A stretch of DNA of 64,000 bases. Source: Myxococcales bacterium (GTDB taxonomy: Bacteria; Myxococcota_A; Polyangia; Nannocystales; Nannocystaceae). Positions 3,719-9,458 of the stretch are shown here, piece after piece; position 1 is the first letter of the stretch, and every line of letters starts with the position of its first letter. The translations under genes and the position numbers were made by a program. The notes below the pieces were generated by a model that worked only from the letters and a program-made list of their open reading frames with translations, did no database searches and had not been told where the DNA came from. The stretch is taken from the NCBI GenBank assembly GCA_014240065.1, contig JAAZXR010000003.1, forward strand, positions 1 through 64,000. Direction: 5' to 3'.

Positions 3719-4141
3719 ATGTCCTCTCCGATGTCCAGTGCCCAGCCAGACGAGCGTCTCAAGATCTTGGTGGTGGATGACGCGGCCGCCGTTGTTGACC
3801 AGCTCTCCGAGACCCTCCGCAGCGGCGGCTACGATGTCGTGACCGCTCATGATGGGCTGGAAGCCAAGCACCGACTGCGCGAGCACCCCAGCACCAAGCT
3901 GGCGATCGTCGATCTGCATATGCCTCGCATGGGGGGCCAAGAACTGCTCGAGCACATCCGCCAAATCGAGGGACTCGAAGACCTCCCGATCGTTATCTTG
4001 ACCACCGACAAAGCGCCCGCCAATCTGGGTAAAGCGATGAGCAAGGGGGCGACGGGATGGATCCTGAAGCCCCACGATCCGGAGCGTCTGCTTCAGGCCA
4101 TCGACAGGATCCTCGGCGCAGCGCAGCCTCCAGGTTCATAG
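3719..4141 (+). CDS. Single-domain response regulator (CheY-like receiver)
   Basis: A 140-residue protein made of a receiver domain alone. The acidic pair is Asp20-Asp21, the phospho-acceptor is Asp65 in 'IVDLHMP', the switch Thr is Thr95 and the conserved Lys is Lys117 in 'ILKPHDP'. A second ATG four codons in could also be the start. There is no output domain, so it must act by protein contact, as CheY or a phosphorelay shuttle does. No kinase is directly adjacent; the nearest is the CHASE/CheA-like kinase about 5 kb downstream, and pairing is only a guess. It is convergent with the Cys-rich peptide gene. Confidence 0.9.
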   Translation: MSSPMSSAQPDERLKILVVDDAAAVVDQLSETLRSGGYDVVTAHDGLEAKHRLREHPSTKLAIVDLHMPRMGGQELLEHIRQIEGLEDLPIVILTTDKAPANLGKAMSKGATGWILKPHDPERLLQAIDRILGAAQPPGS

Positions 4142-4211: not shown

Positions 4212-4526
4212 CTACGCGCAGCGCTTCTCGCCGCACAGCATCTCGACCTCTTCCTCGTCTGCCGGGGTCGGGGTCTTCGCGTCGGCGGCAGCGGCAGCGT
4301 CGTCGCTGGTGGCGGTGTCATTGGACGCCGTGGTCACGGTCTCCTTGTCCTTGCTCTTGCTGCAGCTGGCCTCTGCTTTCGCGGAGCCGCCGCAGCTGCC
4401 TTGCCCTCCGCCCGCGGTGCGAGCTTTGGGTACCTCGGAGGAGTCGCCCCCACCACTCGCGCACCCGGCGGAGAGCGTCCCGCTCCCCAGCAGAGCGAGC
4501 GTCGCGAAAATTGTTTTTGCGTTCAT
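4212..4526 (-). CDS. Short Cys-rich exported peptide, candidate MNIO-type RiPP precursor
   Basis: A 104-residue protein. The ATG is preceded by AGAGGA at good spacing. It has a signal peptide with a possible lipobox (LSAGC, Cys21) followed by low-complexity sequence with no predicted fold: a GSCGG motif, then SCSKSK, a long Ala/Asp/Thr spacer, and the end 'MLCGEKRCA'. Known substrates of DUF692 enzymes of the Buf/Hvf type are exported, Cys-repeat peptides with EGKCG-like motifs; the C-terminal CGEKRC here resembles these. The gene is divergent from an MNIO enzyme fused to its partner domain. Alternative: a plain Cys-rich lipoprotein for metal or redox defence. The RiPP role is inference from motif and context. 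Confidence 0.75.
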   Translation of the reverse strand: MNAKTIFATLALLGSGTLSAGCASGGGDSSEVPKARTAGGGQGSCGGSAKAEASCSKSKDKETVTTASNDTATSDDAAAAADAKTPTPADEEEVEMLCGEKRCA

Positions 4527-4812
4527 CACGTACAGTTTCCTCTCTTGCGTATCAGGGCCCACTTCGGGACCATCAAAATCATCACGACCCGAGCTCGCTC
4601 TCACGATGAGAACGCCACGTCGTGCTCCCCTCCAGACCAACGAATCCAGGGTGCCGGAGGTTACAGCCGGAACTTCTCCGGTACTGTCCGCGGTCGGGGC
4701 GCGAAGTTCGCGCCGTCGCCAGGACCCGTTGCAGCCTCGTGGTGCTCACGCCCTGCTCATCGACCATCCCCGGCCACACTGTAATGTTGGGCGCGTCTCG
4801 TGCGATGTTTCT
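4527..4812. promoter_or_regulatory. Divergent promoter region of Cys-peptide and MNIO genes
   Basis: The 286-base gap between two divergent starts must contain both promoters. The leftward gene has a clear AGAGGA ribosome site; the rightward MNIO gene has none that I can see. I found no convincing -35/-10 pair or operator palindrome. Confidence 0.4.
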
Positions 4813-6585
4813 ATGGTGAGCAGGCCTCCATGGACGAAGGACACCCACACCCCACATGGGGTTGGTTTGGGACTGCGGTGGGCGTTCCTCGACGAGGTCC
4901 TCGCCGGGCGGTCACCTCCCTCCATTCGATTCTTTGAGGTGTCACCGGAGAACTACATGCGGCGCGGCGGATTTTATCCTGAAGCGCTCCGAGAGATCGC
5001 CGAGACCCACCCCGTGCTGACCCACGGGCTCATGCTCAATATTGGGTCCACCGCCGCCCTCGACGAGGGGTATCTCGCGACGCTCCGGCGATTCCTTGAG
5101 CGCATGGGCGCGACGAGGCACTCCGACCACCTGTGCTGGAACGGCGCCGACGGACGAATCCTCCACGACCTCCTCCCGCTCTCGGCGTGCGCGGCGACGG
5201 TCGAGCACGTCGTCGACCGAGTCAAGCGCGTCCAAGATACGCTGGGGATGCCGCTCGCGCTGGAGAACATCTCGTACTATATGCTGCCGGGATCGACGAT
5301 GCCCGAGCGAGAGATGATCGCGGAGGTGCTCGAGCGCGCCGATTGCAACCTGCTCCTCGACGTCAACAACGTCTGGGTGAACGCGCGCAACCACAGCTTC
5401 GATCCCATCGAGTACATGGCGTCGCTCCCCCTCGATCGGGTCGTCCACATGCACGTCGCGGGCGGAGAGCGGCTCCATGACTATGACGACCTCATCATCG
5501 ACACGCACGGGACGGACGTCTCACCGGAGGTCGCTGATTTGATGGCCTGGGTGATCGAGCGCGTCGGCCCTCGCCCCGTCCTCTACGAGCGAGACCACGA
5601 CATCCCCGAGCTTGACGAGCTTGGGCGCCAGGTCGCCCACCTCAACGAGCGCTATGACGCCGCGCTCGATCGGTGGGAGAGGTCCCAGTCCTCGCCAAGC
5701 CCGCCCCAGCTCCATGACCTGCGAACGCGAGGCCCCGCGCGTCACCTCGACAACGCGGGCTCGCCACCGTCGCTACTCTCGGACCTCCAACGCGGCGTGA
5801 GCGACATGATCCTCCATCGCGAGCCGCCTTCGGCGAGCCTAGAAGATGTCGTCTCTCCCCTCGTCGACGGGGCCCAGCGAGCGCTCCATGCGATCCCTCC
5901 CGCGCGACATGAGGTGTACCGAAAGCTGGTCCGCAACGGCATCTCGGGGACGATCTATGCGTTCATGCCTCGAACCCGCGCCCGCCGCGGCGCCCGCGAC
6001 TTCGACGATGACATCGCCGCGTGGCTCAGCGAGGAGGGCCCCCGCTCTCCGTACATCCGCGACCTCCCCGATGAGTTCGCGTCGTGGATCTCGGCGCGAT
6101 GGCGCGACGACGAGTCCATCCCCGAGTACCTCGTGGAGATCGGGCGCTACGAGCTGATGGAGATGCGGGTGAAGGCCGATCCCGACGCCACGCGCCCGAC
6201 AGCGACGCCTCCTCCGCTCTCGCTCGACGCCATCCTCGATTTTCATGGCAGCGTGTGCCTCGGCGCGTTCTCACACAAGGTCCACCTCTTGACGAGAAGC
6301 AAGGAGGACGCCAACGCCCCGCTGGAGGGCGACGCGAGGCTCCTCGGCTACCGCGACGAATCACATGAGGTCCGGTTCCTCGAGTTGAGCCCCTTGGGCT
6401 ACGAGGTGGTCTCAGGGCTCCTGGGGGGCGCTCGCTTCGGCGACTCCGTTCAAGCCGGCACCGCCCGCGCAGGCGAAGCGCTCTCCGACGAATCCCTGGC
6501 GCGCGTGGGGGTCGTGATCTCGGACATGGTGGACCGCGGAATTATCCTCGGCGTGCGTCCACCCGCCTCACCCGGCGACAAATAA
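4813..6585 (+). CDS. MNIO (DUF692) oxidative enzyme fused to DUF2063/HvfC-like partner domain
   Basis: The ATG at the window position given starts a 590-residue protein just before the conserved DUF692 opening 'GVGLGLRW'; the open frame upstream is non-coding in character. Residues 15-285 are the iron enzyme. The expected metal ligands are present: His71 (THGLML), His106 (SDHLCW), Glu151 (LALEN), Asp183/Asn186/His194 (LLDVNNVWVN..H), His214, Asp230/His232 (IDTHGT) and Glu259 (YERDHD). Residues 360-455 match DUF2063 proteins (YRKLV, RSPYIRDLP, YLVEIGRYE). Residues 470-580 resemble the winged-helix end of HvfC/BufC. MNIO enzymes oxidise Cys or Asp residues of precursor peptides, and the partner binds the leader. 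Having both in one chain, next to a Cys-rich peptide gene, predicts peptide modification. The substrate assignment is inference. Confidence 0.9.
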   Translation: MVSRPPWTKDTHTPHGVGLGLRWAFLDEVLAGRSPPSIRFFEVSPENYMRRGGFYPEALREIAETHPVLTHGLMLNIGSTAALDEGYLATLRRFLERMGATRHSDHLCWNGADGRILHDLLPLSACAATVEHVVDRVKRVQDTLGMPLALENISYYMLPGSTMPEREMIAEVLERADCNLLLDVNNVWVNARNHSFDPIEYMASLPLDRVVHMHVAGGERLHDYDDLIIDTHGTDVSPEVADLMAWVIERVGPRPVLYERDHDIPELDELGRQVAHLNERYDAALDRWERSQSSPSPPQLHDLRTRGPARHLDNAGSPPSLLSDLQRGVSDMILHREPPSASLEDVVSPLVDGAQRALHAIPPARHEVYRKLVRNGISGTIYAFMPRTRARRGARDFDDDIAAWLSEEGPRSPYIRDLPDEFASWISARWRDDESIPEYLVEIGRYELMEMRVKADPDATRPTATPPPLSLDAILDFHGSVCLGAFSHKVHLLTRSKEDANAPLEGDARLLGYRDESHEVRFLELSPLGYEVVSGLLGGARFGDSVQAGTARAGEALSDESLARVGVVISDMVDRGIILGVRPPASPGDK

Positions 6586-6625: not shown

Positions 6626-7330
6626 TCAGAAGCTCCCTACCCAGGCGTAGAGCTCGGGGAATGCCTGGAGCACCTTCGCCTCGTACCTCTTGTCGCGCTT
6701 GCTGATCACCGCCGCGCTGAGCAACATGATCGACAGACCCAGCGCGACCGTGGCGCCATAATGAAATCGCGCCCGCGCCCGCCGCGTGCCTGACGCCCAG
6801 GTCGCCACGTACGCGAGCACCACCACGGGCATCATGCTCGCGGCTCCAAACACGAACAGCTTGGCCCCCGCGACGGCCGCCGTCTCCCCCACCTGCGCGA
6901 GCTCCAAAATTCCGCCGAGCGTCGGCCCCGCGCACGGTGACCAGAGCGGCGAGACCATGAACCCGGTGAGTCCAGCGACCGCGAGATCAAACCAGTGCAC
7001 CCAGCGCGGTCGGGTCTCGTCCACGCCGACCTTGTCGAGCAGCGCGCCCCACGGGGCCAGGTACAGCGCGCCCAGGCCGACCAGACAGTAGCTGGCATAT
7101 TTCTTGAGCTTCCTCGGACTCAGCGGCAGGTCGACATCGTTGGCGTAGCCGAACTCAAAGTACACGGTGGTCATGGCGTAGGCGAAGGCCATCGACAAGA
7201 ACACGATCGCCGGGAACCACCGCGACCGCTGCAGCCCCACCGCGACCAGCGCCGGGAGCATCAGCAACACGCACGGGCTCAGCGACGTGACGAGCCCCGC
7301 GATGAATGTGTCCCCGATCCCTGGTCCCAA
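6626..7330 (-). CDS. CcdA/DsbD-type transmembrane thiol-redox protein (copy 1)
   Basis: A 234-residue polytopic membrane protein of the CcdA/DsbD-beta family, which passes electrons from cytoplasmic thioredoxin to periplasmic thiols. The redox Cys pair is visible: Cys20 in 'LSPCVLLMLP' and Cys133 in 'SPCAGPTLGG'. The only usable start is a TTG, with GGAG 11 nt upstream. It lies 60 bases downstream of the thioredoxin-like lipoprotein gene on the same strand, so the two probably form an operon. It shares the C-terminal pattern KVLQxFPE..xWVxS with copy 2 at 9.4 kb. Its last base is about 40 bases from the end of the convergent MNIO gene. Possible role: reductant supply to the envelope. Confidence 0.88.
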   Translation of the reverse strand: MGPGIGDTFIAGLVTSLSPCVLLMLPALVAVGLQRSRWFPAIVFLSMAFAYAMTTVYFEFGYANDVDLPLSPRKLKKYASYCLVGLGALYLAPWGALLDKVGVDETRPRWVHWFDLAVAGLTGFMVSPLWSPCAGPTLGGILELAQVGETAAVAGAKLFVFGAASMMPVVVLAYVATWASGTRRARARFHYGATVALGLSIMLLSAAVISKRDKRYEAKVLQAFPELYAWVGSF

Positions 7331-7390
7331 CGTTAGCTACACTCCGTGAAATCCGCCGCGCATCCCGGGCATTTCGCCGTCGCACACGCG

Positions 7391-7963
7391 CTAGCCCTCA
7401 AGAAACTTGATGAGTCGCTCTTTGCCCGTCTCTCCGACAGATCTCGCCTGCTCGGTCCCTTTGACGTAGCGAATGAAGCTGCTTTGGCGTTGTACACGAA
7501 GCTTGCCCTGTAGGTCCTCGGTTTCGTCGTAGTCGTATCGGCAGATCACCGGGCGACCCTTAATTGAACTTCGGGACAGGGGCTCAAGCTCCCGCCGCTG
7601 CTTCTCGCAGCTCGGGCACCAGTCTGCGTGGAACCAGACCACAAACACGTCTTGAGAGGCCTTGTCCGACTCGAAGGACGACTCCTCGCAGTCGTGAATG
7701 AGCTGGTCCCCGTCGAATGATGCCGCCGCCGGCGCCGCGTTCGGATCCGGCACCGCAGCGCCGTCACCCGCAGCGCCGTTTGCGCCCTCCGGCTGCGCCG
7801 CCTCCGCGCCGTTGGGTTTTGCGGCCGCAGCAGCCGGCCCTGCGACGCCGTCACGCTTCGCGGGCTCCCCTCCGTCTTTCCCGCAGCCGAGGGCCAAAAT
7901 CATGAGCGTCCCGGCGAGGGCCGCCGTCTGTCCAACTCGAAGAGTTCGCTTGTCCTCTCGCAT
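7391..7963 (-). CDS. Thioredoxin-like lipoprotein with CPSC active site
   Basis: A 190-residue protein from ATG (a GTG lies one codon upstream). It has a signal peptide with lipobox LALGC (Cys27), then an Ala/Gly/Pro-rich linker of about 60 residues, and a thioredoxin fold whose active site is WFHADWCPSC (Cys116, Cys119). Two further Cys, Cys92 before the fold and Cys141 in 'VICRYDYDETEDLQ', are also present at the same places in the paralogue at 8.3 kb; extra paired Cys are unusual for simple thioredoxins. It is probably anchored in the envelope and kept reduced by the CcdA-type protein encoded just downstream. Promoter boxes are seen 26 bases upstream of the start. Confidence 0.88.
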   Translation of the reverse strand: MREDKRTLRVGQTAALAGTLMILALGCGKDGGEPAKRDGVAGPAAAAAKPNGAEAAQPEGANGAAGDGAAVPDPNAAPAAASFDGDQLIHDCEESSFESDKASQDVFVVWFHADWCPSCEKQRRELEPLSRSSIKGRPVICRYDYDETEDLQGKLRVQRQSSFIRYVKGTEQARSVGETGKERLIKFLEG

Positions 7964-8291
7964 CACCGCGCCGTCGTCGCCCGAGGGGATTTGATGTTAG
8001 TAGGCGGGCCCTGTCAAGTTTGGACCAATGCTCGAGCGTCTGTAGGTAGATCTGCGGCGTGGGGCGCGACGCTGCGTACCCGCTCAACGCTGCCCAGACA
8101 TCACGTGGCCTCAGGCACACACAGCCCTCGCAGATCCGCACCGATAACGCGCCTCTCGGCACCATAAACGGCCCAATTCGCGTCGTCTTGCCGCGCAAAG
8201 CACAACCCCTCCCCGCGACAATGGCGCGTTCGTGCCGCTTCGCACTTAAGAGATTGATGAAAATAGGCGATTGCCAAGTCTAGACTGAATC
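7964..8291. other. Divergent control region between the two thioredoxin/CcdA pairs
   Basis: This region separates the mirror-image pairs. Its left part has a good sigma-70-like promoter for the leftward pair. For the rightward gene I saw only a weak TTGATG and TCTAGA/TAGACT with wrong spacing, and no Shine-Dalgarno. No gene is supported within it. Confidence 0.5.
7989..8017 (-). promoter_or_regulatory. Sigma-70-like promoter for the leftward thioredoxin/CcdA pair
   Basis: Read on the minus strand there is a perfect -35 box TTGACA, a 17-base spacer and a -10 box TCAAAT (4 of 6 consensus bases). The -10 ends 26 bases before the ATG, leaving a very short leader without a clear Shine-Dalgarno. 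A perfect TTGACA at the right distance is rare by chance in DNA this GC-rich. Confidence 0.55.
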
Positions 8292-8696
8292 ATGCGCCGC
8301 ACTTCAAAGTTCATCGTCGCGTTCCTCGTCAGCGTCGCCTGCGTCACGCTGAGTCAGTCCACCAATGCAGCGGGCAAGGCGACAATCAAGAACTGCGAAG
8401 AAGAGGCGCATCCGAAGCGCCTCAAGAAAGAAAAAATCTACGTCGCATGGTTTCACGCCTCGTGGTGTCCGACCTGCGCGGCGCAGCAAGTATCGATCGA
8501 CGAAATCCTCAAGGGCGACGTCGAGGGTAAGCCGTTCATCTGCAAATTCGACTACGACGAGACTGAGGACCTCCAAGAGGAGCTCAACGTGGCGCGGCAA
8601 TCCACATTTATCCGCTACGCCTCAGGCGCCGAGAAGTCGAGAATCGTTGGGAAGACGAGCGTTGAACACATCAAGCGCTTCCTCGAAGGCCGCTGA
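8292..8696 (+). CDS. Periplasmic thioredoxin-like protein with CPTC active site
   Basis: A 134-residue paralogue of the lipoprotein at 7.4-8.0 kb but with a normal Sec signal peptide (cleavage after 'TNAA', about residue 27) and no lipidation Cys or long linker, so it should be free in the periplasm. The active site is WFHASWCPTC (Cys59, Cys62). Cys35 and Cys84, the latter in 'FICKFDYDETEDLQ', match the two extra Cys of the paralogue. Six bases separate its stop from the next CcdA-type gene, which marks an operon. Likely role: a soluble carrier of reducing or oxidising equivalents for an envelope substrate. Confidence 0.88.
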   Translation: MRRTSKFIVAFLVSVACVTLSQSTNAAGKATIKNCEEEAHPKRLKKEKIYVAWFHASWCPTCAAQQVSIDEILKGDVEGKPFICKFDYDETEDLQEELNVARQSTFIRYASGAEKSRIVGKTSVEHIKRFLEGR

Positions 8697-8702
8697 CGTT
8701 CT

Positions 8703-9458
8703 ATGGATGGCCCCATCTCTGAACTCTCAACCGTCAGTTTTGGAGCGGCGTTTGTCGCGGGCCTCGTTACAGTCCTCAGCCCGTGTGTCCTGGTGATGCT
8801 GCCCATCATCATCGGCACCGGACTACAAAAAAAATGGTGGTACCCCCTGATCGTCTCCTGCGGCCTCGCCCTCGGATTCGCGACGGTGGGGATCTTCTTG
8901 AGCCAGCTTGTCGCGAGCCTCGAGCTCCCTCCCCGCTCGCTTGAGCAGCTCACGGTCATCCTCCTCGCCGCGTTCGGGGTCGTCCTCATCGTTGATCGAC
9001 TCTCCGACGGTTTCTCCGCGTTCACCTCGCGAGCCCTCGGCCCCCTGACCTCTAAACTCAGCGGCGCGCCCCCCGAAGACGGTTCCGGCCAGGTCAACGG
9101 TCTCGTCGCCGCGCTCGCGTTGGGGCTTTCGCTCGGTATTATTTGGGCGCCGTGCGCCGGCCCGACGATGGGCGCCATCTTGACGATGGCGGCCACCACC
9201 TCCACCGGCTACGCGTTCGCGCTCATGGGCACCTACGCCCTCGGCAACGCGCTGCCCATGCTCCTCATCGCCTACGGAGGACGCGCCGCGGCGAATCAGC
9301 TGCTGAATCTACGCGGGGTCCAGCACCGAGCTCGCAAGATCCTCGGCGTCTTGCTGCTCGGATTCTCCGCGCTCAACCTGCTCGGGCTCGACAAGGTGTC
9401 CGAGAAAAAAGTGCTGCAATCGTTCCCGGAGTTTTTTGATTGGGTGGCCTCCTATTGA
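8703..9458 (+). CDS. CcdA/DsbD-type transmembrane thiol-redox protein (copy 2)
   Basis: A 251-residue polytopic membrane protein of the CcdA family. The redox pair is Cys28 in 'LSPCVLVMLP' and Cys151 in 'WAPCAGPTMG'. It ends with KVLQSFPEFFDWVASY, closely like the end of copy 1. It is translated right after the periplasmic thioredoxin-like gene. The two thioredoxin/CcdA pairs face away from each other and look like an inverted duplication that has diverged in how the thioredoxin is anchored. Known family members feed cytochrome c maturation or DsbD-like pathways, but no cytochrome or heme genes are nearby, so the client may be the Cys-rich peptide at 4.2-4.5 kb. That is inference. Confidence 0.9.
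   Translation: MDGPISELSTVSFGAAFVAGLVTVLSPCVLVMLPIIIGTGLQKKWWYPLIVSCGLALGFATVGIFLSQLVASLELPPRSLEQLTVILLAAFGVVLIVDRLSDGFSAFTSRALGPLTSKLSGAPPEDGSGQVNGLVAALALGLSLGIIWAPCAGPTMGAILTMAATTSTGYAFALMGTYALGNALPMLLIAYGGRAAANQLLNLRGVQHRARKILGVLLLGFSALNLLGLDKVSEKKVLQSFPEFFDWVASY

Follow-up and report, generated by a model that had tools for sequence, protein, structure and literature searches.

A Natural One-Chain Fusion of an MNIO Enzyme with Its PME1 Partner, and the Cysteine-Bearing Putative Lipoprotein Encoded Beside It, in Polyangia

Organization of the Locus

The window analyzed in this work is a stretch of 64,000 nucleotides from a member of the Nannocystaceae, whose genome is a 4.7-Mb draft of 235 contigs that is 97.7% complete. 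Within it, two genes diverge from each other (Table 1): one encodes a single chain in which an MNIO (DUF692) domain is followed by DUF2063 and a winged-helix-like end, while the other encodes a small cysteine-bearing peptide, considered here as the candidate precursor. Both had been proposed by a sequence-only reading of this DNA, and both were confirmed: the Pfam, NCBIfam, and fold matches of the enzyme fall within one open reading frame, and the peptide gene lies across the 286 bases that separate its start from the enzyme ATG. Since this ATG is not kept in the sister species when the starts are compared, the true start of the enzyme may be the GTG three bases further on. As for the divergent layout, it holds for the window and for the sister species, which carries the same pair, but it is confined to the genus; in other genera, precursor and enzyme mostly share a strand, with the precursor gene immediately before that of the enzyme.

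Table 1. Features of the locus, in window coordinates
Feature	Position	Strand	Remarks
Precursor lipoprotein gene (putative)	4212..4526	-	104 aa
C-terminal CGEKRC pair (CxxxxC)	4218..4235	-	probable modification and metal site; C98, G99, C103 invariant
D..EV(P) motif	4428..4445	-	residues 28-33, just past lipobox; D28, E31, V32 invariant (n = 11)
Signal peptide / putative leader	4461..4526	-	22 residues, ends at lipobox Cys22
Divergent intergenic region	4527..4812		286 bases; recognizable in sister species
MNIO-PME1 fusion gene	4813..6585	+	590 aa; alternative start GTG 4816
MNIO (DUF692) catalytic TIM-barrel	4858..5646	+	residues 16-278; PF05114 E = 1.7e-89
Low-confidence linker, enzyme to partner	5683..5757	+	residues ~291-315; pLDDT ~54-75
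DUF2063 helical domain	5884..6090	+	residues 358-426; PF09836 34.4 bits, cut-off 27.2
RRE-like winged-helix domain	6220..6558	+	residues ~470-582; HvfC model, 3dee fold

Regarding the surrounding genes, the window also encodes an arylsulfotransferase (ASST) family protein (763-2457) and two pairs, each made of a DsbD/CcdA-like membrane protein and a thioredoxin-like CPxC protein, that form a near-duplicate cassette (6629-9455). The DsbD/CcdA-like and thioredoxin-like genes (6626-9458) were considered as part of the system and rejected, as they are absent from all other loci. The response regulator at 3719-4138 was likewise discarded as a cognate regulator: it is present in the sister species too, but elsewhere its homology cluster consists of generic signaling proteins. 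No copper gene adjoins the window pair, and neither DoxX nor Lactamase_B_2 domains occur among the Pfam-scanned window neighbors. In about one-third of the Polyangia MNIO loci, a YceI-like lipoprotein gene lies directly upstream of the precursor (e.g., L102:9067-9984), and an FGE-sulfatase-like gene stands beside the MNIO locus in 20 of 71 (e.g., L034:3263-4309 and L140:8640-9440); some true FGEs are copper enzymes.

Domains, Residues, and Fold of the Fusion Protein

The Pfam family MbnB_TglH_ChrH (PF05114) matches the whole of the first domain with 300 bits, against a cut-off of 25, and Foldseek pairs the predicted barrel with 3bww, an MNIO close to HvfB (TM 0.88). Nine residues, namely H71, H106, E151, D183, N186, H214, D230, H232, and E259, are invariant in all 71 relatives and are polar, as would be expected in and around the iron sites. 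In HvfB, N175, D242, and H244 are essential (PMC13419390), and from an alignment with 3bww and with the residues reported in that paper we infer that N186, D230, and H232 are their equivalents.

For the second half of the chain, the NCBIfam model of the partner HvfC spans residues 355-580 (E = 4e-25, under its curated cut-off), while the Pfam match to NGO1945_C at residues 490-553 is sub-threshold. HvfB and HvfC are the best-matching NCBIfam models, and the fusion does not reach the curated HvfB, BufB, or HvfC cut-offs. A profile of the C-terminal half retrieves PDB 3DEE, a solved PME1 protein, with E = 2e-15. The AlphaFold model of the whole chain, built with family alignments, has a pLDDT of 92.3 and a pTM of 0.90; in Foldseek, the remainder of this chain matches 3dee (TM 0.72) and TglI, and the RRE-like domain has a weak fold match to the RRE of TbiB1. 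By sequence and predicted fold, then, the C-terminal half is a complete PME1 (DUF2063 + RRE). This partner is a separate protein in PME1 systems, whereas here it shares a frame with the enzyme. The 97.7%-complete window genome yielded no further DUF2063, and the only other MNIO found in it is a distant one, encoded elsewhere.

Anatomy of the Precursor Peptide

The window peptide opens with a hydrophobic N-terminus leading to Cys22, proceeds through SCGG and SCSK stretches, and ends in the tail MLCGEKRCA. It has no convincing match in Pfam, NCBIfam, or PHROGs, it lacks EGKCG repeats, and the HvfA model does not match it. Among the 11 members of the precursor family, this model matches one, weakly (E = 0.006), and Pfam detects the DUF2282 (bufferin 1) signature in none. 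Besides the residues listed in Table 1, the 11 fused-type precursors share M1, T5, I6, L10, G14, C22, and E95 (window numbering).

The gene product had been described as a short, exported, Cys-rich peptide and as the Cys target of the enzyme. That it carries cysteines stands; with an invariant Cys22 placed after the hydrophobic segment, however, it looks like a lipoprotein, probably lipidated at this residue, and not like a free exported peptide. The Ser at position -3 of the window lipobox is unusual. Moreover, what is best conserved is the C-terminal CxxxxC pair and not a general richness in cysteine. Its usual form is CGEGTC, the pattern of the relatives is CG[AEQP]G[TS]C, and the CGEKRC of the window is the most divergent version; peptide and variant tail are kept in the sister species (83% identity). 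Several precursors, including five that lie beside fusions, have this pair as their only cysteines apart from the putative lipid anchor, which leaves no other Cys that could be the target; such precursors occur in more than one fusion lineage.

The N-terminal segment is equally constrained. The signal peptide measures 22 residues in the ten family members compared, and its mean pairwise identity across genera is 60%, against 59% for the MNIO domain. By comparison, the signals of the YceI-like neighbor lipoprotein that several of these genomes encode have a mean identity of 36% and lengths of 18 to 30 residues. Export by itself hardly accounts for a signal of such fixed length that matches the catalytic domain in conservation; recognition by the partner domain would be in keeping with it.

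Pairing of Precursor and Enzyme across Loci

A profile built from the adjacent peptides was searched against 15,674 ORFs, and its homologues adjoin MNIO genes at many loci. According to automatic calling, the nearest precursor ends in a CxxxxC tail at 14 of 16 fused-type and 23 of 35 split-type loci; at the two fused exceptions (L093 and L095), a tandem second precursor copy has such a tail. When the sister-species locus, cut by a contig end, is added, a homologous precursor adjoins 17 of the 20 fused loci, so that the conservation of the peptide next to fusion orthologues, on which the proposal of a modification system depended, is borne out. All 17 have a precursor copy with a C-terminal CG..C, a type of tail that, among 97 other ORFs with a signal used as controls, occurs in just 2. 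The three remaining fused loci have no recognizable adjacent precursor; the genome of one of them (L096) has unlinked ones, and the other two (L100 and L101) are distant Nannocystaceae MNIO-PME1 fusions. In several Nannocystaceae genomes, a split paralogue is retained separately as well; its precursor has SCGG-type repeats and lacks the CxxxxC tail. No relative of the precursor was found in viral contigs.

Other precursors lie away from any such enzyme. The window genome encodes an unlinked second one (L164; contig C210, 12858-13334), with the same type of leader and the tail CGEGTCA, that is conserved in the congener, as expected of a leader-guided enzyme, and similar scattered copies exist in other genomes. 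Also in the window genome, L165 (contig C98, 13373-13600) encodes a leader-like lipoprotein whose tail is an E/A/P repeat and which has no cysteine past the lipobox; it amounts to a leader without a core. At L172:4073-4600, a leader, an EVP motif, and a short Cys stretch are fused to a further domain with a weak GOLD-like match. Its neighborhood includes a metal P-type ATPase that carries HMBD (heavy-metal-binding) and YHS domains, the single hint of metal biology.

Taken with the complete PME1, the 17/20 pairing, and the lack of any other DUF2063 found in the window genome, these data support the proposal of a compact peptide-modification system that would combine the enzyme and its leader-binding partner in a single chain.

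Distribution and Origin of the Fusion

Searches of the genomes of the family, the class, and the phylum returned 19 complete fusions and one that is cut by a contig end, while in most of the other Polyangia relatives examined MNIO and PME1 are adjacent but separate genes. In the tree of the MNIO domain, the fused state needs four changes, compared to 17.5 in shuffles, and a single origin of the fusion in one clade is rejected by the AU test (p = 1e-5), from which two long-branched fusions were left out. Because this one-clade origin is rejected, the tree indicates that the fusion arose repeatedly in Polyangia; the fusions of the Nannocystaceae and at least three more in a second family (f11), whose named relatives are mostly Polyangiaceae, look independent.

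Relation to Known Systems

All of the modules described here are known, from the MNIO/PME1 RiPPs to the lipidated RiPPs and the engineered HvfBC fusion. HvfB needs HvfC, a partner required for the MNIO to reach its active iron state, and joining the two artificially in one chain gives higher activity than co-expressing them; in addition, HvfBC prefers the full-length precursor, and a dual role as signal and leader is cited for bufferin (PMC13419390). The engineered protein and the window fusion both have the MNIO followed by PME1 in one chain, yet the former is man-made and without a linker, whereas the latter is natural, has a linker, and belongs to an architecture that appears to have evolved repeatedly. 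In MovX, too, an MNIO is naturally fused to a recognition domain, although only an RRE-type C-terminal winged-helix is fused there (PMC13419390), in contrast with the entire PME1 (DUF2063 + RRE) found here.

As for the precursors, MNIO-PME1 pairs install 5-thiooxazoles with a preference for Cys-Gly (PMC13097082), which matches the C-G contexts of the window precursor family. HvfABC and FonABC (oxazolin/fontiphorin = captophorin) share with it the MNIO and PME1, a signal-bearing Cys precursor, and the Cys-Gly contexts, but the window system is a single chain and its precursor, without EGKCG repeats, has the C-terminal CxxxxC as its hallmark. The bufferins (BufABC) have the same Sec-type signal, a PME1 partner, and a proposed copper role, while the precursor described here lacks DUF2282. 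NedA, a lipidated oxazolin modified by NedBC, is a precursor that is both modified and acylated, and CxxxxC lipoprotein precursors have been noted as uncharacterized (cluster X) (PMC12636315). By their description, these DAG-RiPPs (lipo-NedABC and cluster X) have in common with the window system the lipobox, CxxxxC as likely target, and MNIO plus PME1, and the window precursor family may overlap the uncharacterized CxxxxC lipoproteins. The motif is also common to the CxxxxC family of PMC12452194, again compared by description; in the portion of that study available, a Lactamase_B_2 neighbor is given for 54% of the clusters, which is not seen in the window.

The same 2025 landscape study gives other MNIO fusions, and no MNIO-PME1 fusion was found in its available portion. 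In the literature searched, earlier notice of the architecture was found only in the paper on the NGO1945 structure, which mentions one DUF692-DUF2063 protein, recorded in Pfam in 2009 (PMC2954202). Its domains follow the order seen here, with DUF692 at the N-terminus, and neither a precursor nor a function or distribution was given for it. Apparently new are the repeated occurrence of the fusion in nature, its pairing with two-Cys lipoprotein tails, the strongly conserved signal/leader, and the unlinked precursors that share it.

Proposed Mechanism and Alternatives

Our preferred reading, to which we assign a probability of roughly 70%, is that the fusion is a self-contained maturase that puts Cys-derived rings, probably 5-thiooxazoles, on the lipoprotein tail before export, yielding a membrane-tethered Cu(I) buffer. 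In the cytoplasm, the DUF2063-RRE half would bind the signal peptide of the pre-lipoprotein, and perhaps the D..EV motif as well, and would bring the disordered tail to the MNIO barrel of the same chain. There, a mixed-valent iron cluster would oxidize both members of the C-terminal CxxxxC pair, and probably also those cysteines that lie in additional SCGG-type contexts, with 5-thiooxazoles (-4 Da each) as the likeliest product. After Sec export and lipidation at Cys22, a flexible spacer would tether the modified product to the membrane, and the anchored tail would there bind Cu(I) or a similar soft metal.

The alternative that deserves most attention, though we judge it improbable, is that the fusion does modify lipoprotein cysteines but yields something other than a thiooxazole copper buffer: the two tail cysteines could form a different linkage, such as the macrocycle or thiohemiaminal of the ChrH group, or could have signaling or surface roles. 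The fixed CxxxxC spacing suggests a paired product, MNIOs of the ChrH group join two Cys of CPxCGxG tails to each other and also act on lipoproteins (PMC12636315), and the recurrent neighbors are the YceI-like and FGE-sulfatase-like genes and not copper genes. The enzyme, however, falls on the HvfB/BufB side and not with ChrH, and all characterized MNIO-PME1 pairs install 5-thiooxazole (PMC13097082). Less probable again is that the adjacent peptide is a decaying copy, with the fusion mainly serving unlinked precursors. This would suit the canonical tail of the unlinked L164 precursor, kept in the congener, next to the variant tail of the window; yet the retention of the window peptide in the sister species, variant tail included, argues for selection, and the adjacency of precursor and enzyme persists across genera.

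Two further explanations bear on the chain itself. Transcriptional regulation was put forward in the paper on the 3DEE structure (PMC2954202), and the DUF2063-RRE half might accordingly be a tethered DNA-binding regulator, as first proposed for NGO1945; we find this very unlikely, as later biochemistry has PME1 proteins as required partners of MNIOs (PMC13419390) and the C-terminal domain is confidently arranged with the barrel in the model. That the fused frame is an artefact of assembly or annotation might be suspected in a 235-contig draft, but the uninterrupted frame recurs at 18 other loci, among them loci of near-complete genomes (G040 and G205), and at several separate positions of the tree, for which reason chance or assembly error can be dismissed.

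Implications

The fusion that was only recently built by hand thus has a natural counterpart, and such naturally evolved one-chain enzymes could serve to study the partner's influence on the iron cluster and to produce peptides with thiooxazoles. With a minimum of two Cys, the lipoprotein tail would be a less complex substrate than the precursors known so far, and a signal that is constant and conserved, together with unlinked precursors that share it, offers a clean test of whether one Sec signal can also act as a RiPP leader. For the Polyangia as a whole, we tentatively put forward a wider picture, somewhat short of even odds, in which these bacteria have repeatedly fused the MNIO and its partner into a leader-guided maturase that would act in trans on scattered lipoproteins sharing the 22-residue signal/leader; the products would be two-ring (CxxxxC), membrane-tethered metal buffers, and the fusion would be a natural answer to the weak binding of enzyme to partner observed with HvfB and HvfC.
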